From Polyangiaceae bacterium (GTDB taxonomy: Bacteria; Myxococcota_A; Polyangia; Polyangiales; Polyangiaceae): a stretch of 64,000 nucleotides of DNA. This document shows, in pieces, positions 1,891-22,398 of the stretch. Numbering within the stretch: position 1 is the stretch's first letter; every line of letters starts with the position of its first letter. The stretch is taken from the NCBI GenBank assembly GCA_009781005.1, contig WQYX01000010.1, positions 1 through 64,000 of the forward strand, read 5' to 3'. Both the position numbers and the translations under genes were made by a program. Below the pieces are notes generated by a model, which worked only from the letters and a program-made list of their open reading frames with translations, did no database searches and was not told where the DNA came from.

Positions 1891-3610
1891 AAGGCACGCT
1901 TCCCGTTCGCATGTACGAGCCTCGCGCAGTGGGCCAGAGCACGCAGGAGGTGCCCGAGCCCGGGACGGTGAAGACGTCGATGCCATGGTCGAACGTCTGC
2001 GCGAGGATTTCGAGCTGGCCGTCGCCATCGATATCCGCGATGGTTGGCGCGGCAGGGACGCCAATCCCGTTGCCGTCGATGCCTTGGTTCGGGAGCGTGA
2101 TGTCGAAGAGAAGCTCGCCGGTGTTCTTCAGCACCACGAGCCGCCCGCCGTTTTTGGCGAGCGAATAGACGCCAAAGACGATTTCCGGGACGCCGTCCTT
2201 GTTCAAATCGGCAACGGTGACCTCGGAGGCGAACGTCTTGGCCGCACCTTTCGCGAAGTCGTAACGCCATAGCCGCGAGCCATCCGCGCCCATTGCGTAG
2301 ATGTAGCCATCATTGATTGGCGCGAGGATTTCGGGCCGCGGGTCGCCGACGATGTTCACCGTCGTCGGCGCGGGGATGCCGTCCGGCGGATACCAATCCC
2401 CGGCGTCACGGACAGGCGGTTGGTCGCTCATCGGGAGTGTTTCAAATCCGGCTTTTCGCCGCGCCGATCGCGAGCCGTCGCCGTACGCGCCTTCGAGGAC
2501 CATGAACGCATAGCCTTGCGTCACGTACGGATCGTGGAGCTCGGCGTTCGGGATCCCGACGATCTCGTTCTTCCCGTCGCCGTCGAGATCGACGACGTTC
2601 GGTGGCGACGCGGTCCATTGCAGCCACATGGTCGTGTTCACGTCGGGCCAAGCACCAACGTGCGCGTGATAGTGATTGTCCTCGATCGTCGGGTCGAACC
2701 AGCGAATGAATTGCCGCCAACCCATGCGCTGCCCGAGGTACGGATCGTCCGGATTCGTGTACCAATCGGACGCAAGGATGCTCGAGCCGTCGGCCTTGAA
2801 CGCGTTGATATAGTGGTTGTCGTACGTGATGATGATCTCGAGATCGTCGTCGTCATCGATGTTGCCGATGCCGACGTTCTCGCCGTCACAGGCGTAGCCG
2901 TGGTTACCCTGGCCGTTGAAGTCTAAGTCGTCGGTTTGGTTGTAACGGGGCCAGCCCGGGCGGGCTTTCCCTTTCGAATCGAAGACGAAGACCTGCGAGC
3001 CCGTGTCCGACGTGTTGTCCGTCGTGACCACGACTTCGATCTGGCCGTCGTGATCGAGATCCGCCGCCGCCATGCCGCTCGCGTTGGGGCTCTGTCCACC
3101 GCTCGTCGTGCTCGCCGTCCACTTCGTGGTGAGTTTGCCGTTCGCGTAGTTGTACGCCGCGACGGTGCCGCCGCTGCCGCCAACGACGATCTCGGGTTTT
3201 CCGTCGCCGTCGAGATCGGCGACGACGTGCGGCGCGTAGATGCGGTCTTGCGTCAACGTACCCTTCGCAAGCTGCTTTCCGTCGGCAGAAAAGACGAAGG
3301 TGCTGTAGAGCGCGGCGACGATCTCGTTCTTCCCGTCGCCATCGAGATCGACGACGGCGGGTGAGGCAAGCCAGCCTGTTTCGTCCGTCTCGATGTTGCG
3401 CACGAACACTGGCTGCACGACCGGTGCGGTGCCGTTCTCGTTCACGCAAGCGGCGGTGGCCGCGATGGCGCCGTCCTGGAGGACGCTTCCTTGGCGATCG
3501 CTCGTGCCGTTACCGTTCGAACCGCACGCCGACCCGGCCAACGCGCCCATGGCAGTTGCGATCGACGCGGAGATCACGACGCCCGCCCACGAAGCGGAGG
3601 TTTTGCGCAT
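1889..3610 (-). CDS. Secreted FG-GAP/VCBS repeat protein
   Basis: A 573-aa protein with an N-terminal signal sequence (hydrophobic residues about 9-28, then ACGSNGNG). The Cys could be a lipidation site, although the preceding residues GSA are a poor lipobox. The body has repeated calcium-binding-like FG-GAP motifs such as DLDGDGKNEIV, DLDGDGKPEIV, DLDHDGQIEVV, DLNKDGVPEIV and DIDGDGQLEIL, consistent with a seven-bladed integrin-alpha-like propeller. It is probably exported; ligand unknown. It is divergent from pelA, separated by 152 bp. The stop codon falls in a family A repeat fragment. Confidence 0.85.
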   Translation of the reverse strand: MRKTSASWAGVVISASIATAMGALAGSACGSNGNGTSDRQGSVLQDGAIAATAACVNENGTAPVVQPVFVRNIETDETGWLASPAVVDLDGDGKNEIVAALYSTFVFSADGKQLAKGTLTQDRIYAPHVVADLDGDGKPEIVVGGSGGTVAAYNYANGKLTTKWTASTTSGGQSPNASGMAAADLDHDGQIEVVVTTDNTSDTGSQVFVFDSKGKARPGWPRYNQTDDLDFNGQGNHGYACDGENVGIGNIDDDDDLEIIITYDNHYINAFKADGSSILASDWYTNPDDPYLGQRMGWRQFIRWFDPTIEDNHYHAHVGAWPDVNTTMWLQWTASPPNVVDLDGDGKNEIVGIPNAELHDPYVTQGYAFMVLEGAYGDGSRSARRKAGFETLPMSDQPPVRDAGDWYPPDGIPAPTTVNIVGDPRPEILAPINDGYIYAMGADGSRLWRYDFAKGAAKTFASEVTVADLNKDGVPEIVFGVYSLAKNGGRLVVLKNTGELLFDITLPNQGIDGNGIGVPAAPTIADIDGDGQLEILAQTFDHGIDVFTVPGSGTSCVLWPTARGSYMRTGSVP

Positions 3611-3762
3611 GTCAGTGAGGATAACGCCTCTCGCTTCGCTTTAGGAAGGAAGCGAAGGAAGAGGAAGACAGGCGCGGCCTTTTTCGTTTACGTGACGCAG
3701 CGATAAGAGTACTATTCAAAGTTTAAAGGGCGCCTCAATCCGTTGTCGTCGCTCTCTTAAAT

Positions 3763-6561
3763 ATGACTTGCCGAATCACAAATATCCATCTGGCCGTCAT
3801 GCTGGGTGCACGGGCCGTTCGGTGGGCGGGGATCCTCGTCGTCACCTTGCTTTTCGCGTTTCCATCCATGGCAAGCGCCGAGGTCCCGCGCACGGCATTC
3901 TTCTATGGAAAGCCCGTTCCGCCTGAGCTTTTTGCACAATACGACCGCGTCGTCGTGGAGCCGGAGAACCTCCCGGCGCCTCCGTCCGGGGTGCGAGCGG
4001 AGACGTTCGCTTACGTGAGCGTGGGTGAAATGGCCGACACGAATGCGCTTCAAAAAGAGGCGCCTCGCGGGTGCTTCGTTGCGCGCAACGCCGATTGGCG
4101 TGCAGAAGTCGCCAATCTGACGTGTCCCGCTTGGCACGCGTTCGTCCTCGAGCGACTCATCGAACCGCTTTGGGCTCGAGGTTATCGCGGGTTTTTCCTC
4201 GATACGCTCGACAGCTTCGAGCTCGTGGCAAAGACGCCGGACGCGAGAAAGACCCAAATAGCCGGCCTCGCGACTCTCTTGAAGAAGGTCATCCAACGTC
4301 ATCCGAACGTGAAGTTCATTTTGAATCGAGGCTTCGACGTCATCGGTCGCGTGCGCGCCAATGTCGTTGGAATCGCAGCCGAATCGTTATTTGCCGAATG
4401 GAATTCAAAAGCAAAGAAGTACGGGCCCGTTTCCGAAAGCGACAGGCAGTGGCTGACCGCGCGCCTTCAGAAGGTCACGAACGAGCACAAACTCCCGATT
4501 ACCGTCATCGATTATGTCCCGCGTGAAAAGCTGGAAGAGCGTCGCGAGGTAGCGCGGAAGATCCTTGCGCTCGGCTACGACGCTTGGGTAACGAACGCTG
4601 CGCTCGACGATCTCGGCGTTGGGCAGACGGAGATGGTGCGACGGCGCGTCCTCGTCGTTCACGGCGGCGAGCAGTACCTCGGCATCAATGACGCGCACGT
4701 CGTCGCTGCGGCCATTCTGGAGCGCCTGGGCTACGCCGTCGACTACGTCAGCCGAAAAGGCCCGCTTCCAACGGGTCACCTCGCGGCGCGGTACGCCGGC
4801 GTCGTGACGTTCTTGACCAGTGAGGATCCCCAGCATTCGGCCGCCTATCGCGCGTGGCTCCTCGATCGTATTCACGAACGACTACCGGTCGTCATGCTCG
4901 AGGGCTTCGGATTCCCCCCCGACGCCGAATTTCTGCGCGAGCTGGGGCTCGAACCGGCCGACGGCGAAAGGTCCGTCCGCGTGGTGAACGCGGCTCCGTG
5001 GATTGGTTACGAGACGAAGCGCATCGATATCGGAAAGAGGATCCCCGACGTGCGAACCGTGGGAGTCCAAAATACGTCATTTCTTCGAATCGAGGATGCG
5101 AAAGGCAAGGATGGTGATGCCGTCGTCATCGGTCCGTGGGGCGGGATCGTGATTCCCCCCTATTTCATGAGTGGAGGAGATTCGTCGACACGGCGGTTCG
5201 TCGTCGATCCGTGGACGTTTTTCGAAAAAGCGCTCGGCGGCGAGCCTGCGCCCATCCTCGACGTCACGACCGAAGGCGGACAGCGCATTCTCACGGTGCA
5301 CATCGACGGCGACGGCTTTGCGAGCCGCTCGGAGATCCCGGGAACGCCGTACGCAGGACAGGTCGTCCACGACCAGATCCTGACGCGATTTCGCATTCCA
5401 ACGACCGTATCGATCATCGAGGGAGAGCTGAGTCGCGAGGGAATGACGCCTGCCGAATCGCCGGTGCTCGAGGCGGCTGCCCGGGCAACGTTCCGGCTCC
5501 CCTTCGTGGAGATCGCGAGTCACTCGCTCAGTCATCCCTTCTTCTGGGCCGATACGGAGGCCGGGAAGCTTCACAACGGAAAAGTCCCCTATCTTCCGAT
5601 TCCGAATTATCGTTTCGATCTTCATCGTGAAATCGTCGGGTCCATCGATTACGTCAACCGGCGACTCGCTCCTGATGGCAAGCGCGTCATGGCGTTTCTC
5701 TGGACGGGCGACTGTTCTCCGAGCGGAGAAGCCGTCGCCATGGCAACGGCCGCTGGCGTCGACAACTTGAACGGTGGCGGAGCAACGCAAACGTTGGGCA
5801 GTCCGTCACTCACGCAGCTCCAGCCTATGATGCTCCCGTTCGACAACGGCGCGCTGCAGATCTACGCGCCCATTCAGAACGACAACGTTTTTACCAATCA
5901 TTGGACCGTGTATCACGGATTCCGGCGCGTCATCGAAACCCTGAAACTTACGGAATCTCCGCGCCGCGTAACCCCTCTTTCGATTTATTATCATTATTTC
6001 AGCGCGACGAAGGCTGCTGGGATCAAGGCGCTCCTCGATGTCTACGAGTGGGCAGAGGCGCAGGAGCCCCATCCGCTCTATGCAACGCAGTACATCCATC
6101 GCGTCAAAGCGTTCGCGTCGGCGTCGGTTTCGCGCCACCCCGACGGCATCTGGGAGTTTTCCGGCCTCGGACCGATACGGACGCTGCGGATCGATCCCGC
6201 GCTCGGATATCCCGATCTCGCGCGGTCGAAGGGCGTTGCCGGTATGAGGGATACGCCGGTCGGACGATACGCGACGCTCATGAGCGATCACGTCGAGATT
6301 GCGTTCGCAAAGGCACCCCCGTCCGGTCCGTACGTCGAGCGATCCAACGCCGAAGTACTGTCCTTTCGCTCGGACGGGCATGGCGGAACGAGCCTTCGTC
6401 TCCGCGGGAACGTCCCCGTCGTATTCGCCGTAGGCGGTGTGACGAGCACGTGCAGCCTGCGCATCGGCAAACGCAACGTTTCGGGCGTGACCTCTGGATC
6501 GACGTCCGTATTCACGCTCTCGGAAACCGACACCGGGGAGGCCTCGCTTGTCTGTCGCTAA
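3763..6561 (+). CDS. pelA: PelA, periplasmic glycoside hydrolase and polysaccharide deacetylase for Pel
   Basis: 932 aa. A signal peptide is visible at about residues 13-40 (hydrophobic GILVVTLLFAF, then SMASAE); translation could instead begin at the ATG at 3799, which gives a more typical signal. Residues about 42-280 match the GH114/GH166-type TIM barrel of PelA (YGKPVP, ETFAYVSVGE, GYRGFFLDTLDSF). The later region carries a CE-type deacetylase. Its candidate metal ligands are D515 in HIDGDG and H587/H591 in SHSLSH, spaced as in Pseudomonas PelA (D528, H600, H604). PelA deacetylates the GalNAc-rich Pel polymer and can hydrolyse it. It overlaps pelB by 14 nt. Confidence 0.9.
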   Translation: MTCRITNIHLAVMLGARAVRWAGILVVTLLFAFPSMASAEVPRTAFFYGKPVPPELFAQYDRVVVEPENLPAPPSGVRAETFAYVSVGEMADTNALQKEAPRGCFVARNADWRAEVANLTCPAWHAFVLERLIEPLWARGYRGFFLDTLDSFELVAKTPDARKTQIAGLATLLKKVIQRHPNVKFILNRGFDVIGRVRANVVGIAAESLFAEWNSKAKKYGPVSESDRQWLTARLQKVTNEHKLPITVIDYVPREKLEERREVARKILALGYDAWVTNAALDDLGVGQTEMVRRRVLVVHGGEQYLGINDAHVVAAAILERLGYAVDYVSRKGPLPTGHLAARYAGVVTFLTSEDPQHSAAYRAWLLDRIHERLPVVMLEGFGFPPDAEFLRELGLEPADGERSVRVVNAAPWIGYETKRIDIGKRIPDVRTVGVQNTSFLRIEDAKGKDGDAVVIGPWGGIVIPPYFMSGGDSSTRRFVVDPWTFFEKALGGEPAPILDVTTEGGQRILTVHIDGDGFASRSEIPGTPYAGQVVHDQILTRFRIPTTVSIIEGELSREGMTPAESPVLEAAARATFRLPFVEIASHSLSHPFFWADTEAGKLHNGKVPYLPIPNYRFDLHREIVGSIDYVNRRLAPDGKRVMAFLWTGDCSPSGEAVAMATAAGVDNLNGGGATQTLGSPSLTQLQPMMLPFDNGALQIYAPIQNDNVFTNHWTVYHGFRRVIETLKLTESPRRVTPLSIYYHYFSATKAAGIKALLDVYEWAEAQEPHPLYATQYIHRVKAFASASVSRHPDGIWEFSGLGPIRTLRIDPALGYPDLARSKGVAGMRDTPVGRYATLMSDHVEIAFAKAPPSGPYVERSNAEVLSFRSDGHGGTSLRLRGNVPVVFAVGGVTSTCSLRIGKRNVSGVTSGSTSVFTLSETDTGEASLVCR

Positions 6562-9500
6562 TCGTGTGCGGCTCATGAACAACATGGCCGTCAGCGTGTT
6601 CGTGGTGACGCTCGGCGTAGCGCTCTTCCGGCTGCTTCCATCCGAACACGAACTCGAAAAACTTAGCTCGACGGGGCAGCCGAGCGCGCTGTCGCTCCGA
6701 TATCTGCAGGCGCTCGTTGCAGCGAATCCAGAGGACGAGCACCTTCGGCTCCTTCTCGCGCGCGATCTGCTCGCGTCCGGAGATCTCGACGGCGCGCAAG
6801 AGAGCCTGAGCCACGTCGTCGATGAAAAGGGGCCCGCTTTCCACGAGACGAAGAAGCTCCGGATGAGCATCGCGCTACTCCGCTTTCGCGCGAAGAACGC
6901 GGGCGTCACCGAAGAGATCAGCGAGCACGCCATCCGCGATGTGCTCGCCGGGTCTTGCGAGAAGGAGACGCTCGAGGCGGCAGCAACGTTTGCGCTCGAA
7001 ATCGGCCGTCCAGGGCTCGCCGCCGACACTTACGAGCGCCTCGCCCGACAAGACGCATCCGCGCGGGCGGCGTGGCTCGTGGAGGCCGCGCGCTGGCGGC
7101 GCGCGTCAGGCGATGACGCGCATGCGGCGAGCCTCTACGCCGAGGCCGCCGACGCAGCACCCGAGGCTCCGGCGAAGCGTGAACGCGCGGTCCCGGGCCC
7201 GGTGCCCGTCGATCTACCCAACCAGAAAGATTCGCGCCTCGTCGACAAACAGGTCGATCTCGATCGCGCGATCGCTCTGGCCCGAACGACGTATCAGGCC
7301 CAGACCGTGCTCGAATTGCGCCTGCGCTGCGCCGAGCAGCCCGACCCCACGGATTCGTGCATTCTCGAACTCACCCAGGCTTACGAAGACGTGGGCGATC
7401 CGGACGCGGCATCGGCGGTGCTCTCCGCGCACGTGAAGCGTCGCGGATCGCGCGCGCTCTGGAAGAGGCTTGCGATCCTCGATGAGAATCGCGGCGCGCC
7501 TCGAGAGGCGATCGACGCATGGCAGCAGGTCGCGAGCCTTGCCCCGCTCGACGGGACGGAGGCGCAACTCGCAGCCGGTCTCCAATGGCGTATGGACGCT
7601 CCGCGGGAGGCGCTCGATGCGCTCGTCTCCGTGCCCGAGAGCGCACCGGGGCGTGACGTAGCGTACTGGTCGATGGTCTCCGACCTCGCCTGGGAGATCA
7701 ACGATGCTGCCGCCGCTCTCCGTGCGCTCGCCGAGCTCCGCGCGCGAGGGGATACGTCCGACGACATTTTCGATCGGATCATCTCCATCGAAGAAAACAG
7801 AGAAAACGACTCCGGTGCGGCGACCGCTGCGCTGGAGGCGTATCGATTGCGTTTCGAGCCGAAGATGCTCTTTACGGCAGCGTCGCTCCTCGACAGGCAA
7901 AAAAAGGATCGTGAGGTGGTGACGATCCTCGCGAGTGCGTCGTCGCACGACGATAAGCTCTTCGAGCTGCCCGAGTATTGGACGCGGCGTGCGACGGCAT
8001 TGGAGCACCTCGGCGAGACGGCAGAAGCGTGCCGTGCATACGAGGGTGCGCTGCGCCTCGAGCCAGACTCTCCCGAGCACATGCACGCTGTCTTCACGTG
8101 CGCGATGGAGGTTGCCGACGTTGCGGAGCAACGTGGTGACTCGGCAGAAGCGTTGCGTGTCCGGCGCGAGGCCCTCGCCATGCTCTCTCCGCGCATGGCA
8201 GAAGCCATCAAGGCCCCGCGCGCAAACCGTCACACGCGGGACGCCATCCTCGCGCGAGCCATCCTGGCGCGCCGGCTCGAAGGGCCCGGCGCCGCGTACC
8301 CGTGGCTCGATTACCTCATTCCGGCAGGTGATGAGCCTATCGACGACTCCGACGTAGCAGCGCTCGCGATATCGTATTACCTCGCGGATGGAAATGCCAA
8401 ATTGGCAAAGCACACGCTGAGGCGCGCGCACGGGCTCACGCCGGAGACCGTTCGAAATACGCGGCTCGCGCTCGCGCTGATGGCGAACGATATCGACGAA
8501 CTCGAGCGCCTGCTCCCGGAGATCCCTGCGTCGGACAGCTCGCGCATCGACGCGCTCATTCGAACGGGACGCGATTCCGAGGCCATGGGCGCGATCGACG
8601 CGGAAATCAAGTCGGCGAACGCCGCGGTCGAACGCGATCGGATAAGAGAACTGAGGCTCGATCGCGCCGACTTGGCCGAGCAAGCGTCTTCGAGCGGACG
8701 CACGTCGTACGGACTCGACGCGCTCGGCTCGCTCCTCATCCACGGTCCGCGGCTCGAAGTGGCAGCTCCCTACGACCGGGTGCGGTTCGAGGGAGACGCG
8801 CGATGGAACCAGATCTCGTCGAACGCCGTGCCTCTCCCGATTGGTTCTTTCGACGAGAAGCAAGGGAGTCTGGCCTTCGGGTATCGGACGCTCCGAACGA
8901 ATTCTCGTTTGGCGCTCGGAGCCAATCTGCGCGCAGGGATCGCCATGCCGCAGGCTACGGCGAGCTTCATGCAACAGGCTCTCGGTCGGCTCACTCTTCG
9001 CGAAGAGATCACGTTCCAGGACGCTCCGATCGACACCCCGCTCATTCGCGCGGTCGGCGTGCGTGATGCGGGCAAAGTGGAGTTCGCCCTCGACGTCACT
9101 TCGCGGGATCGGATCGAGCTCGACGGCATGGTGTTTCAGGAGCGAACGATCCATCAGGACGCGCTCGGCATCGGAGGGAGAGGCTCGCTCACCGTTGCGC
9201 ACCGGCTGCTCGACGGCGCTCCGGATTGGAACGTTTATGCGACCGGAATCGTGATGGGTCGCAGGCTATCCTTGGAGGCCGGCGCGTCGCTCGCTGGCGT
9301 CGGCATTCCGGCGAGTACGTCTCCGAACGAGCTCCTTCCCGAGATGGCCGTCATGGCCGCGATAGGAACGCAGCTCGAACACGGAGATCCGATGAGCCCG
9401 TGGGGACGCACGTCGTTTCCACGCTATTCGATAGGGATCAGCGCTGGACGACGCTGGCCAGACGATATGTGGAATTTCGAAGCTCGCGCTGGCATCGGCA

Positions 9501-9616
9501 CGCGCGTTTTCGGCGACGACGTCTTCGGTCTCGCCGCATACTACGGGCGCGGCCTCGTCGGGTCGGGGGCGGACGCGTTTCGCGGAGGGATACTCTACTA
9601 CTCACACGGCCTTTGA
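6548..9616 (+). CDS. pelB: PelB, TPR scaffold and outer-membrane Pel export porin
   Basis: 1022 aa from a TTG start overlapping the end of pelA; an ATG at 6575 is an alternative. One N-terminal membrane helix (VSVFVVTLGVALF) is followed by a long alanine-rich helical region with TPR-like repeats to about residue 710. The C-terminal ~300 residues alternate like beta strands and end in YYGRGLVGSG...YYSHGL, fitting the 16-strand porin of PelB. It is somewhat shorter than the ~1190-aa Pseudomonas protein. In the known system PelB guides polymer and PelA to the outer membrane, helped by PelC, which is absent here. A family A repeat follows the stop codon. Confidence 0.85.
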   Translation: MSVANRVRLMNNMAVSVFVVTLGVALFRLLPSEHELEKLSSTGQPSALSLRYLQALVAANPEDEHLRLLLARDLLASGDLDGAQESLSHVVDEKGPAFHETKKLRMSIALLRFRAKNAGVTEEISEHAIRDVLAGSCEKETLEAAATFALEIGRPGLAADTYERLARQDASARAAWLVEAARWRRASGDDAHAASLYAEAADAAPEAPAKRERAVPGPVPVDLPNQKDSRLVDKQVDLDRAIALARTTYQAQTVLELRLRCAEQPDPTDSCILELTQAYEDVGDPDAASAVLSAHVKRRGSRALWKRLAILDENRGAPREAIDAWQQVASLAPLDGTEAQLAAGLQWRMDAPREALDALVSVPESAPGRDVAYWSMVSDLAWEINDAAAALRALAELRARGDTSDDIFDRIISIEENRENDSGAATAALEAYRLRFEPKMLFTAASLLDRQKKDREVVTILASASSHDDKLFELPEYWTRRATALEHLGETAEACRAYEGALRLEPDSPEHMHAVFTCAMEVADVAEQRGDSAEALRVRREALAMLSPRMAEAIKAPRANRHTRDAILARAILARRLEGPGAAYPWLDYLIPAGDEPIDDSDVAALAISYYLADGNAKLAKHTLRRAHGLTPETVRNTRLALALMANDIDELERLLPEIPASDSSRIDALIRTGRDSEAMGAIDAEIKSANAAVERDRIRELRLDRADLAEQASSSGRTSYGLDALGSLLIHGPRLEVAAPYDRVRFEGDARWNQISSNAVPLPIGSFDEKQGSLAFGYRTLRTNSRLALGANLRAGIAMPQATASFMQQALGRLTLREEITFQDAPIDTPLIRAVGVRDAGKVEFALDVTSRDRIELDGMVFQERTIHQDALGIGGRGSLTVAHRLLDGAPDWNVYATGIVMGRRLSLEAGASLAGVGIPASTSPNELLPEMAVMAAIGTQLEHGDPMSPWGRTSFPRYSIGISAGRRWPDDMWNFEARAGIGTRVFGDDVFGLAAYYGRGLVGSGADAFRGGILYYSHGL

Positions 9617-9621
9617 CTCTC

Positions 9622-9766
9622 AGAGCGTGTTCGCCAGCCTGCTGCGCGAATCGATACGTCGGTTGGGCGCTGCGGTGCCTGCGCACGTACGACAAGTACG
9701 TTTACGCGGGCTCCTCGCGCTCCGCCCTAGCCTCGATTCGCTCGCGACGGCTGCCCTACACGCTCT
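9622..9766. repeat. Palindromic repeat family A, copy between convergent pelB and pelG
   Basis: A 145-bp element filling the gap between the two convergent pel operons. Its left end AGAGCGTGTTCGCCAGCC is nearly the inverse of its right end GGCTGCCCTACACGCTCT. An equally long relative (inverted) is at 22228-22372; ends and flanking arms match, while the central ~45 bp differ. The last base coincides with the end of the pelG stop codon. It probably acts as a two-way transcription terminator, with mobility suggested by the second copy. Confidence 0.85.
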
Positions 9767-11130
9767 CAGCGCATGAACGTTTCGTACTCGATCCGATCGA
9801 GCTTTCGGGTCAGGATGGCGAGCCCCACGGCCGTGGCGACGAGCAGCGAGCACGCGAAACCATATCCATAAAAGCGCGATCCGAGGTGAATCGTAAGCAT
9901 GGTAAGCGAGAGGTTTGCGATGCAGAAGAGAACGTTGAGCCCGAACGAGAGCGCTCGGTAATCGAGATAAAAAAGAACCGTCAAGACTCCCAAAAAGACG
10001 ACCTGAATTCCCGTGCCCATGACATCGATATTGAAGAGTGGAACGTAGAGGAGCGGAATCCCGATCGCTGCAAGGACCCTCGGGCCGATCAAGATGACGA
10101 AGAGGACGGTCAGCCCTTGGACGCGGAAGATGTCGTAGAGACCGTCGCGCGCGGCGGAGACCAGTTGATTGCGCAATCTCTCGATCATCGATAGCGACGC
10201 GCCTTCGCGCACGGCCCGGAAGAAGGCGTCGTAAGCATCGGCGAAGTCGGTTTCGATGCGGACGAGGAAGACCGCCATGCCCGGAACAATCGAAAAATAT
10301 GCCAGGAAGATAGGGACGTCGTAGATGATCGACAGACGAATGGGCCCCAATACTTGCGATGACGTCTGCGGCGTCCACCAGAAGATGAATTTATCGATCC
10401 AGATCCCGAGGTTATAGAGGGCGCCCGTTCCGGCGAGGACCGGGAAAACGAGCCGTCGATTGAGAAAATCGAACGCAACGCGAATGTCGCTCGGGTATTG
10501 CCGAACCACGAGGACGAGCATCGAAAGAAGAAGAAGCGCCTGGCCCACGAAGAACGCCAAGAGGAGTCCTTCGGCGCCGAACCGGGCGAGGGCGAGGGCG
10601 AGCAGGAGGCACGCGGAATAGCCCGAAAGAAAGAGAAGGACGACCATCCGGTACGCCTTCATTCCGGTAAGGAATACCGAAAGGATCCAGACATCGTTCA
10701 GCGTGACGAAATTGACGATGAAAAGGAGCCGATATCCATAAAGCCCGCGGAAGGCGAACAGGACGAAGAGGGTGGCGAGGAGACCGCTCACGAGGGTCGT
10801 GAGGAGAAGTGCGCCGAACAGGTTCGGCACGACGAGCTCGCGCTTCTTCTCGAACAATCTGTCGGCCACGAAGCGCGTGAAGAGGAGCTGGAGCATCCCG
10901 GACGTGATGAGCGACGCGGCCGTGACGTGCGTAATCGTGGCAAAGAAGACGGCGACGTGGGCCCCCGATACTTGAACGGCGAGCGCCACGAGGCCCGTCA
11001 GGATCGTTCCGACGATCGAGATGACCCACGGCCCCGAACCGATGATCGCAGCGATCGAGTAGGCCGTGATGAGGCCCGCGTACGTCTCCTTCTGGAGGTG
11101 CTGCCGGAGCTCGAAACCGATACCCGCCAT
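9766..11130 (-). CDS. pelG: PelG, polytopic inner-membrane Pel export protein
   Basis: 454 aa beginning MAGIGFELRQHLQKETYAG, the characteristic PelG start. The reading frame extends further upstream, but this ATG overlaps the pelF stop as TAATG, which fixes the start. It has about 12 hydrophobic segments and resembles MOP/MATE-type polysaccharide flippases. With PelD and PelE it should form the inner-membrane complex that moves polymer made by PelF across the membrane. It is the last gene of pelDEFG and is convergent with pelB. Confidence 0.92.
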   Translation of the reverse strand: MAGIGFELRQHLQKETYAGLITAYSIAAIIGSGPWVISIVGTILTGLVALAVQVSGAHVAVFFATITHVTAASLITSGMLQLLFTRFVADRLFEKKRELVVPNLFGALLLTTLVSGLLATLFVLFAFRGLYGYRLLFIVNFVTLNDVWILSVFLTGMKAYRMVVLLFLSGYSACLLLALALARFGAEGLLLAFFVGQALLLLSMLVLVVRQYPSDIRVAFDFLNRRLVFPVLAGTGALYNLGIWIDKFIFWWTPQTSSQVLGPIRLSIIYDVPIFLAYFSIVPGMAVFLVRIETDFADAYDAFFRAVREGASLSMIERLRNQLVSAARDGLYDIFRVQGLTVLFVILIGPRVLAAIGIPLLYVPLFNIDVMGTGIQVVFLGVLTVLFYLDYRALSFGLNVLFCIANLSLTMLTIHLGSRFYGYGFACSLLVATAVGLAILTRKLDRIEYETFMR

Positions 11131-12671
11131 TATCGACCCATCGCTTCCGTATATACGTTTCTGTAATTGCCAATCATCTTCTCGAGCGTGTAATACCGCT
11201 CCACGCGCTCGATTCCCGCCCGCTGAGCGGCGCGCCACGCGGATTCATCGAGCAGCAGCTCCTTGATGGCGGTCGCCGTGGCCTCGGGATTCGCGATGGG
11301 AACGATGCGCCCTGCGGCTCCGAGCGCCTGATCTTCTGGCGTCGCGCCGTATACGAGCTCACGGCAGCAGCCGACGTCGCTCGATACGCATGGAACGCCG
11401 GCCGAAAAGCCCTCGAGGAGCGAGAGCGGCTGCGCCTCGCTGATCGACGTGAGGACCATGAGTCCGAGCTTCGGTAAAACGGCTTCGGGTCTCTGAAATC
11501 CCAAGAATTTGATGTGCCTCTCGACGCCGAGGTTCTTGACGAGGCTGTGGCACTCGCTCGCGTACGCCTTGTCTTCGTCCTCCGGACCGATGAGCCAGCC
11601 TTCGATGTCGTCGATCTCGTTCGCCAGGATACGCACCATTCGCACGAAGGTCTTGACGTCCTTGATGGGGACGATGCGTCCGAGCAGCCCGACCACGCGC
11701 GGGATCTTCGCCGGGCGATTCGCTCGGAGCGGGGCGAAGCGTTCGAGCTCGATCCCGTTTGGGATGACGCCCGTTCGCTCGGCCGTCGCTCCGTCCGCTA
11801 CTTGGCGCTGCCGGTTGCCTTCGTAGAGTGCGATGATCGGGTCCGCGACGGAATACGTGATACGCCCGATTCCTTCGAAAAAGCGAATCCATAATTGGCG
11901 GATATATCCGATCTCCGAATGGGATATCTCCCCGCTGTCGGAGCTCGCTTCCTTGAGCCAATCTGCCTGGAGTAGTTCGATTCGCCGCTCTTTCGTGTAA
12001 ATGCCATGTTCCGTTAAAATGAGCGGACGCCCGGATGCCTGACTGAGAATCGTCCCAAAGAAGCCTGCAAACCCCGTTGAGACCGTGTGGTATGCGCGGG
12101 CTTTCGGCGCGTTCTTGGCTGCGAGTGCGAGCATGAAGAGCGGCGCGTGCACCGAACGCACGGTCCAGAAATAGTCGACGAACGACAGCTCACTGCAATT
12201 GGCACGGTAGCGACTCGTGATTTCGTCCCAAGAGAGCTCGCTGTGAAGGAAATCCTTGAGGATCGAGCCGGGGCGCTCCGCGAGCGGAGTCGCCAGGTTT
12301 CGAAGCAAATTGGAAGGGAAAGACTCCTTGGATGTTTTGAGCGCGTCGTGGACCTGCGCTGCAATATCGAAAAAAGTAGGATCCCCGCGCCGCTCCCCCG
12401 AATGGTCGTGGACTGCGATGGACGACAGGTAGTGTTCCTCGAGATGGACCACGTTGGGCGGCATGTCGTATTTCATGCCCTGATAGTGGGACGGATCGCC
12501 GCCGATGAAGAAGATGCCGAACCTGATCTCGGCAAGCCCCCGAATGATCTGATGAACCCAGCTCGAGACGCCGCCGCTGACGTACGGATACGTACCTTCG
12601 AGGACCAGCGCGACGTCGAGTGTCTCCCCGCGCGAGAGTGTCCGTTTTGTCTTTTCGGTGTTTGTCTTCAT
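11130..12671 (-). CDS. pelF: PelF, cytoplasmic GT4 glycosyltransferase that polymerises Pel
   Basis: 513 aa from the ATG of MKTNTEK; it overlaps the pelE stop as ATGA and the pelG start as TAATG. The N-terminal half has the family signature LEGTYPYVSGGVSSWVHQII and the C-terminal half the GT-B donor domain. The E-x7-E motif typical of GT4 enzymes is at E412 and E420 (SEAQPLSLLEGFSAGVP). In the known pathway PelF uses UDP-GalNAc/GlcNAc-type donors and is recruited by the PelD-E-G complex. Length is close to Pseudomonas PelF (~507 aa). Confidence 0.93.
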   Translation of the reverse strand: MKTNTEKTKRTLSRGETLDVALVLEGTYPYVSGGVSSWVHQIIRGLAEIRFGIFFIGGDPSHYQGMKYDMPPNVVHLEEHYLSSIAVHDHSGERRGDPTFFDIAAQVHDALKTSKESFPSNLLRNLATPLAERPGSILKDFLHSELSWDEITSRYRANCSELSFVDYFWTVRSVHAPLFMLALAAKNAPKARAYHTVSTGFAGFFGTILSQASGRPLILTEHGIYTKERRIELLQADWLKEASSDSGEISHSEIGYIRQLWIRFFEGIGRITYSVADPIIALYEGNRQRQVADGATAERTGVIPNGIELERFAPLRANRPAKIPRVVGLLGRIVPIKDVKTFVRMVRILANEIDDIEGWLIGPEDEDKAYASECHSLVKNLGVERHIKFLGFQRPEAVLPKLGLMVLTSISEAQPLSLLEGFSAGVPCVSSDVGCCRELVYGATPEDQALGAAGRIVPIANPEATATAIKELLLDESAWRAAQRAGIERVERYYTLEKMIGNYRNVYTEAMGR

Positions 12672-13684
12672 CGCCAAAGTTCCTGGATCTCCGCGACGAG
12701 GACGTGGTCGGTCGGCAGTCCGTCGATGGTCGAGAGGCCGTTGCGAGCTTCCTCGAAGGCGCGCCGCCGGAACGCCTCTTCGGCGCCTTCGACGGCGAGT
12801 TCCGTTTGCACGATCCCCGCAAGGATGGCTTGGTCGAACACCTCGCGCGCGTCGACTGCCGGCTCCCCTGCCGGCGATTGCTTCAGCAAGATACGTCCGA
12901 CGAGGCGCAGCACCGCGGCGTCGTCCGGTACGATGGCGAGCGCTTCGCGTGCATGGGTCAGCGCGGACTTCAGCACGTGCTTGTAGAGTTCGCCCTCCGC
13001 GAGCCCGAGGTAGGCGACCTCGTGATAATTCTCCGCCAGGGTCACGTGGAGCTCCCACGCCCGTCTTGGGGTGGGTCCCTCTTTCAATACTTCGAGGGCG
13101 TGCTCGATCTGGAGATCGATCGTTCGCCGAATCTTCTCGAGCTGACTGAACGCCAGGAGGCGAACCTCTTCGGCCTTGTCGGCGAGCGCCGTTTTGAGCA
13201 CCTGCACCGCGATGCCGCGCGGCACGTCGTTCGTCTGGAGGACGGCCCGAAAGCGCGCCTCGACCGAACCCCCGTAGCGCACGAGGTGGAGGAGCCGATC
13301 GGCGAGTACGGCTCCACGAAGCTCTCTGGTCGGTTGCCGATCGAACGGATTCGATGGCGCGTAACGTTGAAACGAAATTGTCTGCTCTTTCGGTTTCGCA
13401 GAGACGATGACGTAAATCGCCGCCATGAGCGCCGCTCCGCCAAAGACGGGAATGAAGAACGCCGTGGCCGTGGCGAGCGCGCCAATCCGCCCGCAGGCAG
13501 CTCTCCCCATCTCGCGAAGAGCTCTCCTCAGGAAGAATCCAAACGCAAATGCCATGACGCCGTGCGCGAGGATTCCGAGAACGATAGTCCGGGGCTCACG
13601 CAGGAGGGCGATTCCGACGAGCGCGAGGACTGTGTCCCCGAGGACCGCGCTACTCGGCAGAGTGAGCCAGAACCGCGTTTTCAT
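12668..13684 (-). CDS. pelE: PelE, inner-membrane TPR scaffold of the Pel synthase complex
   Basis: 338 aa from ATG 13684 (MKTRFWLTLPSSA). Two N-terminal membrane helices (about residues 10-47 and 60-85) precede an alpha-helical domain with TPR-like pairs (RAWELHVTLAENYHEVAYLG, ALAIVPDDAAVLRLVGRILL). PelE bridges PelD and PelF. The start lies 35 nt inside the 3' end of pelD and the stop overlaps pelF as ATGA, so the four genes are translationally coupled. The call rests on architecture and synteny; sequence conservation of PelE is low. Confidence 0.85.
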   Translation of the reverse strand: MKTRFWLTLPSSAVLGDTVLALVGIALLREPRTIVLGILAHGVMAFAFGFFLRRALREMGRAACGRIGALATATAFFIPVFGGAALMAAIYVIVSAKPKEQTISFQRYAPSNPFDRQPTRELRGAVLADRLLHLVRYGGSVEARFRAVLQTNDVPRGIAVQVLKTALADKAEEVRLLAFSQLEKIRRTIDLQIEHALEVLKEGPTPRRAWELHVTLAENYHEVAYLGLAEGELYKHVLKSALTHAREALAIVPDDAAVLRLVGRILLKQSPAGEPAVDAREVFDQAILAGIVQTELAVEGAEEAFRRRAFEEARNGLSTIDGLPTDHVLVAEIQELWR

Positions 13685-15182
13685 GTGCCTCCCTCGTTGT
13701 GTCGACCTTGGCAAGGAGCGCTTCGACCTCGGCGAGGATCGTGTTGCTCTTCGCACCTTTGAGGAGCCATATCCGGAAAGACACGCCGAGAGATGCCATG
13801 TCCGCGCCGTTGCGTTCGCGGCTGAGGCGATCGATTCGGGCCCGGAAGGTGAATGCTCCATCGGCGTCGGTGAGGGGCATGACGACGAGGACCACCGGAT
13901 TGTCGCTCCGGTCCCTCCTCATGATCGGCCAATCGGTCGTGCGAAGATCTCTCGCGATCAAATCCTCGAGGACGATCGTTCCGCGCGATCCCTTCTTGCA
14001 TGAGAACGCCGCGAGCACGCTCGGCAGATGGTTGTCGCGTGCATCGATCCCGGCGCGTTCGAGTCGTTCGACGAACTGACTCCATCGATCGGTCTCTCTT
14101 GCATCCTCTCCCGCGGCTCCCGCGACCGATCGCATCGAGACGACGGTGTATCCGGCGATGACGTACAGGAGCCTCAGATTCGATGCCTCGAACGCGACGA
14201 ACGGAAGCGACTGAATAGCGACCACGCCAATTCGCTTTTGGGACACGTCGAGGAGCGGAATGGCGGCAAGGAGCGTCGTTGAAGCGGACAATTCGTGATA
14301 CTTCGCGGCGTGAACGACTTCCCCGCTGTCGAGCGCTTCCTTCACCAAAACGTCGTCCTTCGGAAAAGGACGCATCGCTCCGATCGACGCGATGGGCGAG
14401 CTCTCGAGTCGTCCCTCTCCGTCGACGAGATGAACGCACGCCGCCTGCACGCGCCCGTAGCTCGCCATGATCCCGAGCATTTTCGTGAACCCCGCGGCGA
14501 GATCGTCCTCCCGTGTCGCCTTGGCGTCGATGAGCGCGTGGAGCGCTCCACGAAGCGACGTGAGTCGCGCCGCCGCACGCTGCTCGAGACGTTCGTGGGA
14601 GAGCTCCAGCAGCATGTAGCTCCGGGAGAAACCATCGAACTGGGTTCGCAAGTGGCGATAGTCGGTTTCGAGCTTGTTGGATTTGCGTCGTATCGAGGCC
14701 GACACCTGACCGACGATCATCGTGAGAAGCATGACGCCATAAGCAAGTTCCGCCGGCAGCGTCCGCGTGAACGCCACGAGCGAGAGAAGAAGGATCGCGC
14801 TCGTCACCCCTGCACCAAACCCGTGCCGGAGTGCGACGAGCACGGGCGGAACTGCGAGCCATGAGAATCCGTGGCTGAGAAAGAGCGGATCTTTGCGCTC
14901 CACCACCATGCCGATAGCCGGCATGAGCAACGTGATCACGATGGCCTCGGCGTAGGCCCGCAGCTTTTGTTTTTTGAGCAGTGCCCGCGTGCGCGTGCGC
15001 GTGCCGACCCGAGGCGGCGTGTCCTCGATTCGTCGCCGTACGGCCGATGCGGGCCCTTGTGAGGTCGATATGGGCCCTTGTGTGGGGGCTTTCGAGTCTT
15101 TCTTGGGGATGGGTCTCATGGGCGAAGCTCTTAAGAGTCCTGGAAACGAGAAAAGAGCGACACGTGGAGGTTTCCCCGTCAT
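13650..15182 (-). CDS. pelD: PelD, membrane c-di-GMP receptor with GAF and degenerate GGDEF domains
   Basis: 510 aa. A charged N-terminal tail is followed by about four membrane helices (residues ~75-165), a GAF-like domain (~215-340) and a C-terminal GGDEF-like domain without the catalytic GGDEF motif. R414-T-T-D417 in DLRTTDWP sits where the inhibitory RxxD site of diguanylate cyclases and PelD would be, and is a candidate c-di-GMP-binding site. Binding should switch on Pel synthesis post-translationally. The start is uncertain: ATG 15182 or 15119; neither has a clear ribosome site. It is first in pelDEFG and divergent from the VWA gene. Confidence 0.88.
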   Translation of the reverse strand: MTGKPPRVALFSFPGLLRASPMRPIPKKDSKAPTQGPISTSQGPASAVRRRIEDTPPRVGTRTRTRALLKKQKLRAYAEAIVITLLMPAIGMVVERKDPLFLSHGFSWLAVPPVLVALRHGFGAGVTSAILLLSLVAFTRTLPAELAYGVMLLTMIVGQVSASIRRKSNKLETDYRHLRTQFDGFSRSYMLLELSHERLEQRAAARLTSLRGALHALIDAKATREDDLAAGFTKMLGIMASYGRVQAACVHLVDGEGRLESSPIASIGAMRPFPKDDVLVKEALDSGEVVHAAKYHELSASTTLLAAIPLLDVSQKRIGVVAIQSLPFVAFEASNLRLLYVIAGYTVVSMRSVAGAAGEDARETDRWSQFVERLERAGIDARDNHLPSVLAAFSCKKGSRGTIVLEDLIARDLRTTDWPIMRRDRSDNPVVLVVMPLTDADGAFTFRARIDRLSRERNGADMASLGVSFRIWLLKGAKSNTILAEVEALLAKVDTTREAHENAVLAHSAE

Positions 15183-15325
15183 TCGGAGTTAACCGAATGA
15201 CGAAGAGACTCCGCGGCATGACGACACATGCACCAGGTGCGAGGAAAGCGCAAATGATTGAAGACCTGTCACGACGCGAGTCCGAATACCGAATGGCATG
15301 ACTCCGGAGATCGATTGGCGCGCTC

Positions 15326-16789
15326 GTGCGTACGGCGCGCATGGCACTCTCATTTTGGTTTCGTTCCCCCGCGCTCCGCCGTGGCGTTGCTGTTTCCGCT
15401 GTCGTCCTCGCAGCGGGCGGTCTCATTCTCCACAAGTCATCGGCCGCCGGTCACGCGTCGGTCATGCCTTCCTCCATCCTCGCGTCGGGTTCGAACTCGG
15501 CGTCGTTCTCGGGACCGGGCGCGCACGGCATGGTGTCGCTCAGTCACTCGCGCGTCTTGCGCGGATCGCAGACGCGTCTCTTCGCCGAAGTGCGCATGAT
15601 CGCCGACGCAGCAGAAGGCAACGCGAAAGAACGCGCACCGATCTCCCTCGCCGTCGTGCTCGACACGTCGGGTTCGATGAGCGGCGACAAGATCAATGAA
15701 GCAAAGCGCTCGGCGCTCGAGTTGCTCGCGCAGATGCGCGATGACGATGAGATCGCATTCGTTCGCTATTCGGATTCGAGCGAACTTCTGCAACCTCTTT
15801 CGCGCGTGAGCAACGTCCGCTCCCAGCTCGCCTCACGCATTCGCGAGCTCTCTGCGGGCGGCGGCACGAACATCCCGCGCGGACTGTCCGAGGGGCTCGC
15901 CGCGCTCGGCGCTGCAGATCGCGATCGCGTGCGCCGCGTCGTCCTCGTCAGCGACGGACTCGACGGCACTCGCGTACGGGCCGAACAGCTCGCAGAAAAC
16001 GCTTCCCGCGACGGCGTGGTCGTCTCGTCGCTCGGCATCGGCCTCGACTTCGACGAAGCGTACATGGGCTCGGTCGCACAACGCGGGCACGGAAACTTCG
16101 CGTTCGTCAAGGACGGCGCAAGCCTCGCGAAATTTCTCTCGCGAGAGCTCGTCGAGACGGCATCGACGACGATCGAAAACGCCGTCGTGACGTTGACCTT
16201 GCCGGAAGGGATCACGTTCGTGTCGGCCACGGGCGCCGACGCCGGCACGACGGGGCGCGGCGGCCGAACGATCGAGCTATCGCTCGGCTCGCTCTTCGCA
16301 GGCGACGATCGCCGCGGGATCGTGGAGCTCGCATCGGATGGCGACGTAGATGGCCATCTCGACGTCGTCACGCATGCACGATGGAGCCGCGTGGGCGCGA
16401 AGGGCGCCGTCGACATCGACGTGCCGAGTCTCACGCTCGTGGCGAGCCGCGATCCGGATGAAGTCGTGCGCGGACGCGACGGCGCCGTCCTCGCAAGCGC
16501 CGCGAGTGTCGTCGCATCGAAGCGTCAAGTCGAAGCGGCGAATGCGTACGCCCAGGGAGATGTGGCGCGCGCAACGAAGCTCGTCGAAGCCAACGAAACG
16601 GAGCTCACCGCGGCGCTTGCCGCAGCGCCTGCACCAGCGGCCACCGCGGTCCAAGCGCAGCTCGATAGCTATCGCGAAGCCAAGAAAACGTTCACGTACG
16701 TCCCGCCCGCAACGACCGCCGGCCGTGCCGCCGCGAAAGTCACGACGGAAAAAGAGATGAGCAACTTCAAACGAAAGGCTTGGAAATGA
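15326..16789 (+). CDS. Membrane-anchored VWA-domain protein with intact MIDAS
   Basis: 487 aa from GTG 15326, or 482 aa from ATG 15341. A single N-terminal membrane helix (GVAVSAVVLAAGGLIL) is followed by a von Willebrand A domain at about residues 108-280. Its complete metal site is DTSGSMSG, GGGTNI and a later SDGLDG. A beta-rich domain follows, then a C-terminal helical region. The gene overlaps the next by ATGA, and that one overlaps the third by ATGA, so the three are coupled. The VWA domain likely mediates metal-dependent protein binding in the periplasm. Function is unknown. Confidence 0.8.
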   Translation: MRTARMALSFWFRSPALRRGVAVSAVVLAAGGLILHKSSAAGHASVMPSSILASGSNSASFSGPGAHGMVSLSHSRVLRGSQTRLFAEVRMIADAAEGNAKERAPISLAVVLDTSGSMSGDKINEAKRSALELLAQMRDDDEIAFVRYSDSSELLQPLSRVSNVRSQLASRIRELSAGGGTNIPRGLSEGLAALGAADRDRVRRVVLVSDGLDGTRVRAEQLAENASRDGVVVSSLGIGLDFDEAYMGSVAQRGHGNFAFVKDGASLAKFLSRELVETASTTIENAVVTLTLPEGITFVSATGADAGTTGRGGRTIELSLGSLFAGDDRRGIVELASDGDVDGHLDVVTHARWSRVGAKGAVDIDVPSLTLVASRDPDEVVRGRDGAVLASAASVVASKRQVEAANAYAQGDVARATKLVEANETELTAALAAAPAPAATAVQAQLDSYREAKKTFTYVPPATTAGRAAAKVTTEKEMSNFKRKAWK

Positions 16790-20600: not shown

Positions 20601-22229
20601 CGTCTACCGCAGGAAGTCATCCAGCGTGTCGTTCGTCAGAACTTCGGGCGCTTCCGTACCTGTTACGAAAATGGCCTGCGCACGAATCCGAATTTGCAGG
20701 GTCGCGTCGCTGTGAAGTTCGTGATCGATCGCTCGGGTGGCGTTTCCACTGCGCAAGAGGGCGGATCGGACCTGCCGGATCAGGGCGTCGTGTCGTGCGT
20801 CGTTCGCTCGTTCACCAATCTCTCGTTCCCGCAGCCTGAGGGCGGCATCGTCACGGTCGTCTTTCCGATCAACTTCAGCCCCGGAGAGGGTGATGCTTCC
20901 GCGAAGCCGGCTGCCCCGAAGCCCGCTCCAACTCCTGTCGCTCGCATGGTTCGCGCGCTCGGCCGGTGCAGCGATGTCGCGAGCCGTCCTCTCGCCGAGC
21001 GCATCGTTCTCTGGCAGAAGCGCGCGAAGAAGACGGAGAACGCGAGCGAGCTCGCCGAGCTTTACGACAAGGCCTACGCCGCATGCGAGTTGCCTGATTG
21101 GCGCGATGAAGCGGCGCTCCTCGATATCCTCCAACGTCGGATCGACACCGAGCAAGCTGCCGAGATCGTGCTCGCGCACTTTGCCGACAGCTCTGTTCAC
21201 CAGCAATTCATTGCGAAAAACCTTCTTCGCCGGACCGTCGATCTCCGCGTCGCCGCCGTGGTTTCGCGACTGCTCTATGGTGGCATCGATTGGACGAAGA
21301 TCGATCGCGAGATCGACGACACGGACCGGCCGGAAAAGCAGCTCGCGCTGCTCAAGGCGGCCATGCTCGTCGCACCGGGCGATCCGCAAGGCGACGTCCG
21401 ACTCGTGAAGCTCCTCGCGCGGAGCGGCGAGCGCGAGAACGCGCTCGCGTACGGGCGGCGTCTGCGTGATCGCGGCATTGTCACGCCGTCCCTCGCGCAG
21501 CAGCTCGGCGACGTGCTCGCTGATGCGGGCGAGCGCGATGAAGCACTCCGAACGTACTCCGAGATCGTCGAGTTCGATGGACAGAATCCGCTGTCGCGGC
21601 GCGTGCTCGGCGATGTGTTCCTTCGTCAGGGTTGGTACGCGGCCGCTTATCGGCAGTACAAAACGCTGACGGACATCGACGGAAAGGATCCGCTCGCGTG
21701 GCTACGGCTCGCGAACGCGGCGGCCGGTGCGGGACGTGTCGACGAAGCGCTCCGCATCGATCGCGAAGTCGCGAGCAGGGAAGGGACGCCGGGACCGAAT
21801 GATCCGCGCATGTTCGCGCGTCTCTTATCGGCCGCGCGGCTCGGCATCTTGCTCGACAAACCCGATTCGGGTGTCACGCGCGAAGCGGTTTCGCGCAAAC
21901 TGAAAGAGCTCTCGCTCTTCAGCGGTCCGGGAGTGCTCGCGCTCCTCACGTGGGACGATCTCGACGCAAAGCTCGTCATCGGCGCGCTCGACGAGAAGAA
22001 AGAGACTCTCGAGGGCGAGTCGACCGATGCAGGCGTCGTCGGGCTCTACTCCGTGCTCGGTTCTGCGGCGTCATGGGAGCACGCGCTACGCGCAGCGCGA
22101 TACAGAAGCGAGATCCTCGCGCGCAAAGTCCCGTACAAGCTCGTCGTGCTCACCTGGGACGGCAAAGACTTCGGCGTCACGACGAAGTCAGGCGCACTCG
22201 AACCAAAAGCCAAGCAAGCGTCGCTTTAG
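17685..22229 (+). CDS. 1514-aa FecR-VIT-VWA-AgmX/PglI-TPR protein
   Basis: Starts at MNDPNTPSK (ATG 17685), overlapping the previous stop. A Pro-rich cytoplasmic tail (1-60) and one membrane helix (about 62-84) precede a FecR-like domain (~90-250). A VIT domain begins at about 283 (VVRAVIRDGVAETEVDQTF). A VWA domain follows near 512, but its metal motif is DTSAGGD rather than DxSxS, so metal binding is doubtful. An AgmX/PglI C-terminal-type domain lies near 971-1065 (RFRTCYENGLRTNP, GRVAVKFVIDRSG). TPR-like helices fill 1090-1514. AgmX-type domains occur in myxobacterial gliding proteins, but a motility role is only a possibility. A family A repeat begins at the stop codon. Confidence 0.85.
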   Translation: MNDPNTPSKPPLPPAAAPVQPPSPPSAPSAPSARPPGAPFAPYRLPAVGPAPVPPEKRIPLRTILLGILSVVALLSVIAAVVFRPPPPKKAQKLGARLDLAAGEVTVEGTGAKAISGTPLAEDATIKTGKGARALVRTGDGAGIFLRGDTALALRQRGVSVDGEIWLEVPRVDGDALEVRAGNCTITATDAGVDVRHDGNDVVVYVSRGLAVLTAPGGRVEINAGEQGVVKSDAKPNVSPVAFWEDWTGGMGDQRGARLAGSGTGRLYGLDPTVSKGAPAKKLGIAKQVVRAVIRDGVAETEVDQTFSNPGGEPIEGWYWFTVPTSATVTGFALETNGQLVEGEVIEKREAAARYEQAVRASTDPALLEWVDGRTYRARVFPIPASGTRRVVLRYIEMLPAVSGKTQYVYPLRSEDPVRFDEFALSVDIGASDQEVDVASSLDARVEPSGRIVSMRRSGYVPQADFQLELTAKKKSPPVGAWRFSAGADQADYVMFRYVPDADFAKLPASDADVVLVVDTSAGGDQQARQLRVAAAEASLRALSDKDHFALVTLDVASAVIYPPEGLAPATESDIAKALERLANRAMGGATDLGAMFEPALARLHGKDQAALVYIGDGAPTSGEISEEELLERLRRSLSGSRARFFALGTGADARHALLTQLTRAGGGQYVRIDEPGQTTGNALRLMSAIKTATITDVGIDIGAGLDQPLYSATGKLSRGEELVLLARTHHPLPKSVSVRGRLGGKDFNEKYELNVATDTITSSMVPRLWAAEYARRLMGEMTDENRSQILQLGVEYGLVTPYTSSLALENEAAYARMGIVRKHSRVRGVRLTSIERPSDEENLLRGLGIFATPPTMMGCDRRAPSEERSAPMPMERSGTENSAGAPIPPEQLSYAQDSDRLPAAQATAVTAKASSPPQAAGAAPNDPHLARGNMWGQGIGDAFGNGQGGGASFGMIGKSPSIRPGAVQVTGRLPQEVIQRVVRQNFGRFRTCYENGLRTNPNLQGRVAVKFVIDRSGGVSTAQEGGSDLPDQGVVSCVVRSFTNLSFPQPEGGIVTVVFPINFSPGEGDASAKPAAPKPAPTPVARMVRALGRCSDVASRPLAERIVLWQKRAKKTENASELAELYDKAYAACELPDWRDEAALLDILQRRIDTEQAAEIVLAHFADSSVHQQFIAKNLLRRTVDLRVAAVVSRLLYGGIDWTKIDREIDDTDRPEKQLALLKAAMLVAPGDPQGDVRLVKLLARSGERENALAYGRRLRDRGIVTPSLAQQLGDVLADAGERDEALRTYSEIVEFDGQNPLSRRVLGDVFLRQGWYAAAYRQYKTLTDIDGKDPLAWLRLANAAAGAGRVDEALRIDREVASREGTPGPNDPRMFARLLSAARLGILLDKPDSGVTREAVSRKLKELSLFSGPGVLALLTWDDLDAKLVIGALDEKKETLEGESTDAGVVGLYSVLGSAASWEHALRAARYRSEILARKVPYKLVVLTWDGKDFGVTTKSGALEPKAKQASL

Positions 22230-22372
22230 AGCGAGTTCGACAGCCGTCGCGAGCGAATCGAGGCTAGGGCGGAGCGCGAGCACCGGGCGGAACAGGCTTA
22301 AGGCCTTTGAGCACGGAGCGCAGCGCCCAACCGACGCATCGATTTCGCGCAGCAGGCTGTCGAACACGCTCT
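22228..22372. repeat. Palindromic repeat family A, second full copy
   Basis: 145 bp, inverted relative to 9622-9766. The ends AGAGCGAGTTCGACAGCC and GGCTGTCGAACACGCTCT are inverted repeats matching at 17 of 18 positions. The left end begins in the stop codon of the preceding gene. The centre carries a module (CTTAAGGCCTTTGAG) related to the centre of family B repeats. Confidence 0.85.
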
Positions 22373-22398
22373 TAGTTAGGTAGACCCCACCGCGCGGG
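22373..22398. repeat. Family C repeat segment
   Basis: The segment TAGTTAGGTAGACCCCACCG (22373-22392), continuing as CGCGG, matches 31974-31998 with a one-base difference in the A/G run. It directly abuts the family A repeat. The homology to the 31974 copy does not continue downstream, so it marks a shared boundary rather than a complete element. Confidence 0.6.

Follow-up and report, generated by a model that had tools for sequence, protein, structure and literature searches.

The window analyzed here, a stretch of 64,000 nucleotides from the draft genome of a Polyangiaceae bacterium, carries bona fide genes, by profile, for the biofilm sugar Pel, with pelA-pelB on the + strand and pelG-pelF-pelE-pelD on the - strand. 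The two sets form convergent clusters that lie tail to tail in the stretch 3763-15182, and all six overlapping Pel reading frames are open over 11.4 kb. The features are as follows.

3763-6561, + strand: pelA, periplasmic hydrolase/deacetylase (GH114 PF03537, E=4e-15; solved PelA 9cgy, 3.6e-181)
6548-9616, + strand: pelB, inner-membrane helix, TPR superhelix, stalk helix and 16-strand outer-membrane barrel (PF24604, E=1.9e-34)
9623-9765, no strand: MITE-like palindromic element of 143 bp (TCA target duplications at 9620-9622 and 9766-9768)
9766-11130, - strand: pelG, inner-membrane exporter (PF16933, E=4.7e-138)
11130-12671, - strand: pelF, GT4 glycosyltransferase (NF038011 PelF, E=1.2e-212)
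12668-13861, - strand: pelE, inner-membrane protein PelE (homology to PelE of relatives, 5e-69 to that of G154)
13650-15182, - strand: pelD, predicted c-di-GMP receptor (PF16963 PelD_GGDEF, 3e-13; solved PelD 4dmz, 4.5e-25)
15183-15307, no strand: junction of the pelD 5' end and a genus-conserved VWA gene, on the side of pelD where pelC normally sits

Profiles and coordinates agree with the first-pass annotation, which had read a Pel locus split into these convergent halves from the sequence alone. Genes overlap within each half (pelA and pelB by 14 bases; pelD, pelE, pelF and pelG end on start), giving two convergent units that look like operons. Scans for sigma-70 promoters and terminators returned nothing beyond chance. 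Elsewhere in the window, at 242-1634, a transposase-like ORF (PF14706) precedes an ORF at 1188-1571 that is similar to the C-terminus of a group II intron maturase, and Rfam RF00029 marks a group II intron domain at 1559-1634; the arrangement suggests a piece of an intron lying within or next to an IS.

Pel proteins encoded at the locus

PelA aligns with the solved protein over nearly its whole length and keeps the DGD and SHxxSH motifs of the deacetylase as well as a Glu of the hydrolase. The pelB product combines TPRs with the PelB barrel domain, as expected from the porin domain first assigned to it, and matches solved PelB 9h80 at 2e-34. The pelE product has no Pfam match and was identified through its homologues in relatives. 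For pelD, the start is possibly an internal Met at about 15119. When PelD is aligned with 4dmz, the I-site RxxD (here RTTD) and a second Arg are kept, the latter at the position of R402, and the locus is probably c-di-GMP-controlled.

The marks of a Pel locus present in the window are thus the PelF GT4 synthase, the PelG exporter, the PelD I-site, the PelA catalytic residues and the PelB TPRs and 16-strand barrel; the mark absent, from both the window and the draft genome, is the PelC lipoprotein. Like the pelABCDEFG locus and PelBC complex of P. aeruginosa (PDB 9h80, PMC12141448), the window has homologues of PelA, PelB, PelD, PelE, PelF and PelG, with the TPR-stalk-barrel form of PelB and the PelD c-di-GMP site in common. 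It differs in its two convergent gene clusters and in having no PelC.

An AlphaFold2 model of PelB (mean pLDDT 82.6, pTM 0.47) starts with a helix at the N terminus and continues through TPRs and a stalk to 16 strands at 716-1021. The first-pass annotation had raised the prospect of an extra domain replacing the PelC ring, and the model adds none. Its best fold match in the PDB is 9h80_M, the PelB of the PelBC complex, followed by BcsC, and as modeled the protein retains the TPR-stalk-barrel layout that docks PelC. Among the arginines that contact PelC in 9h80, the equivalent of Arg-1018, the best conserved, is kept. We rejected a signal of PelB co-adaptation at these arginines: the other positions vary widely even in loci with PelC, and the contacts are therefore uninformative on PelC loss. 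A change at Tyr-1103 is common to the window and G154, which has PelC.

Search for PelC

We searched for PelC with a profile (A1) whose PelC sequences were taken from relatives and Burkholderiales plasmids. As controls, it found the solved P. aeruginosa PelC 9h80_C at 7.8e-54, the more distant solved PelC 5t0z at 4.2e-44 and the PelC of G476, a genome outside the training set, at 1.4e-54. Against the window's own genome, a 4.77-Mb draft of 199 contigs with a marker completeness of 100%, the same profile gave zero PelC matches at E<=10, and a wider 23-row PelC profile gave zero matches there too. With Caballeronia PelC as a single query, the top match in the genome (E=0.28) was at the level of chance.

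A filter-free six-frame scan of the window with the PelC profile likewise found no PelC (best 5.6 bits), upholding the original observation that no PelC frame lies between or beside the halves and speaking against an adjacent homologue that was simply missed. Remnants of pelC were sought at 3600-3800, 9600-9800 and 15100-15420 and none was recognized; local alignment scores there were low, 40 at most, with uncalibrated significance. As the draft could be missing sequence, we class this as a rearranged Pel locus without detectable PelC and not as a complete PelBC system.

Junction, relatives and history of the locus

The palindrome between the halves is a real inverted repeat (DNA fold z=-3.3), as first described, but a special role for it is not supported. 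The genome holds at least 40 near-full copies of the 143-bp element at 92-99% identity (40 scored of 427 first-look candidates). Copies have ends of the GAGCGTGTT type and are flanked by a target duplication of three bases, TNA; its two sides are identical in 26 of the 29 copies examined, against 0.29 expected if sides were paired at random. The junction repeat has the properties of a MITE, being multi-copy and short, with terminal inverted repeats, a short target duplication and no transposase gene; it is not part of the Pel system. A further copy lies in the window at 22228-22375 (81%) and others on many contigs, one of which (C108) begins inside a copy. The family is young and also occurs in the related genome G119 at 82%.

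The right-hand TCA at the element is the pelG stop codon, and the reconstructed empty site reads pelB stop, three bases, pelG stop. Native C-termini are retained by pelB and pelG on both sides of the junction, that of PelG, YETFMR, being common to the window and G154. Because the TCA/TCA duplication flanks the element, it was most likely inserted into an already joined pelB-pelG junction, after the halves faced each other. The target duplication implies later insertion, and the palindrome was therefore rejected as the cause of the inversion. The matching duplications also make a genuine junction about three times as likely as a misjoin driven by the repeat; this is support and not proof. At the far end of the locus, the VWA gene beside pelD is syntenic with that of G119, which is pel-less, and homology to G119 begins at 15308.

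An order-wide search of 184 genomes found PelB in 8 and PelG in the same 8. In all seven of the other pel-bearing genomes, pelC is flanked by pelB and pelD, on one strand. These loci (G154, G121, G123, G145-147 and G112) are the closest homologues; they differ from the window in keeping pelC, and none is convergent. Two-unit pel loci as such have other examples: the halves are head to head in G121 and G123, which belong to the same genus. In a Methylococcaceae locus, B-C is reversed behind D-G, and pel rearrangements and a Nitrosospira multiformis duplication have already been published (PMC7112194). The convergent layout itself is known from one draft genome, with no second example among those surveyed.

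A phylum sample of 379 genomes added one PelB-bearing genome above the cut-off, G476. Besides a normal pel operon, it has an orphan PelC on a separate contig, beside an ABC permease (L166, 9220-9855), and, on a different contig, an orphan PelB-like barrel with a poly-Asp linker, adjoining an NRPS-like synthase that resembles poly-lysine synthase (L165, 8049-10490).

The survey was widened by 80 further pel loci from GTDB genomes, the best 80 by PelF similarity and thus no census. Taken together, the surveyed loci include 65 (one contig counted twice) in which a barrel and PelC were both detected. In another six, PelC is present but the barrel diverges too far for our own barrel profile (PF24604 positive in 3/3 checked). 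Seven Nitrosospira loci (L070, L081, L083, L092, L093, L105 and L106) resemble the window in having no PelC between pelB and pelD. They differ from it in being colinear and in their PelB, a protein of about 910-930 aa that consists of TPRs only; the three that were tested lack the PF24604 barrel. These loci retain pelA and pelDEFG. The window is the only surveyed locus with a PelB barrel and no PelC. In five other loci (L023, L024, L025, L026 and L027) PelB is apparently made as two pieces, one a short TPR protein and the other carrying TPRs and the barrel, and in L023 and L024 the two parts sit in head-to-head units.

PelB, PelD, PelE, PelF and PelG of the window each group with G154 with a support of 1.0 (five trees), which indicates that both halves come from one ancestral locus. 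Accelerated evolution of PelB was not seen: its branch is 0.80 of that of G154, against 0.73 for PelF, 0.51 for PelG and 1.12 for PelD. The simplest course consistent with these sequences would start from an ordinary colinear pelABCDEFG operon, in which the pelDEFG block was inverted, leaving the pelB and pelG ends three bases apart and tail to tail. The loss of pelC would have come with the inversion as one event or separately, and the mobile palindrome would have been inserted later at the pelG stop codon.

Pel export and the fate of pelC

The reading we prefer, at roughly even odds, is that this is a genuine Pel exopolysaccharide locus, rearranged from a colinear operon, that has lost pelC and would still be working without the canonical ring. 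It is favored because the key residues of PelA and PelD are kept, the frames are open and PelB is not evolving faster. The loss of pelC would then be real in the cell, with export continuing. PelF, PelD, PelE and PelG would synthesize the polymer, which in the case of Pel is cationic and rich in GalNAc, and move it through the inner membrane, PelA would trim and deacetylate it, and PelB would thread it along the TPR scaffold and through the 16-strand barrel, without a canonical PelC ring or with an unrelated lipoprotein. By analogy, ringless export through PelB would resemble that by BcsC and PgaA, which share its TPRs and 16-strand barrel but handle other polymers and have no lipoprotein ring to lose. 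The strictest form of this idea, a full TPR-barrel PelB secreting Pel without any PelC-type ring, is doubtful, and we advance it tentatively.

Against the preferred reading stand the single draft genome, in 199 contigs, and the need for PelC in Pel transport by P. aeruginosa (PMC12141448). In all other surveyed loci the barrel either comes with PelC or is missing along with it, and PelB here has held on to the TPR/stalk that docks PelC and to the counterpart of Arg-1018, as would suit a protein that still has a partner. The proposal in the first-pass annotation that this PelB works without PelC is possible; the protein has gained no extra domain, and its layout is still the PelC-docking one.

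The same docking parts would be expected if the organism does have pelC and the draft fails to show it, the gene having fallen into an assembly gap or lying between two 143-bp repeat copies that were collapsed into one at 9623-9765. This is the most serious of the alternatives, although we consider it unlikely. With 199 contigs, at least 40 near-full repeat copies and a contig that starts inside one, there are places where a gene could be hidden, and the orphan PelC of G476 sits on a contig of its own. Against this, marker completeness is full, most copies were assembled through, the matching TCA duplications weigh about 3:1 against a collapse of two copies, and pelC is missing also upstream of pelD, its usual place. 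The earlier suggestion that PelC is encoded elsewhere survives to this extent, having found no match in the draft with either profile.

It is less probable still that the loss of pelC is recent and Pel export has ceased, the remaining genes being intact as decay has not begun or as they serve another use. The Gram-negative system that has been studied cannot do without PelC (PMC12141448), and the junction repeat shares as much as 99% identity with other copies, which makes its insertion, at least, look recent. Six intact overlapping frames, the retained PelA catalytic and PelD c-di-GMP residues and a PelB that has not changed in excess relative to G154 all argue the other way.

That an unrelated lipoprotein forms a ring in place of PelC, as also proposed at first, is very improbable. 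One candidate is an LpoB homologue (contig C27, 44475-44909), the only PF13036 match in the genome; LpoB and PelC are weakly similar, Caballeronia PelC matching PF13036 at E=0.02 and being annotated as LpoB in its record, but against the PelC profile the C27 frame reaches no more than 3.9 bits. Counterparts occur in 9 of 10 relatives, including the pel-less G119 and six of the seven with their own PelC, so that we rejected it as a hidden PelC and regard it as a generic lipoprotein, not a dedicated replacement.

Should the preferred reading of a working Pel locus without the canonical ring be correct, it would bear on how Pel export is understood. PelC is required for Pel transport in P. aeruginosa, and the exact role of its ring has been described as unclear (PMC12141448). 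The survey gives a rule, PelC kept with the barrel and both gone in Nitrosospira, to which this window is the single exception. If true, the PelC ring, held to be essential and a hallmark of Gram-negative Pel export, would be dispensable, and a natural barrel-bearing PelB without PelC would offer a direct test of the purpose of the ring.
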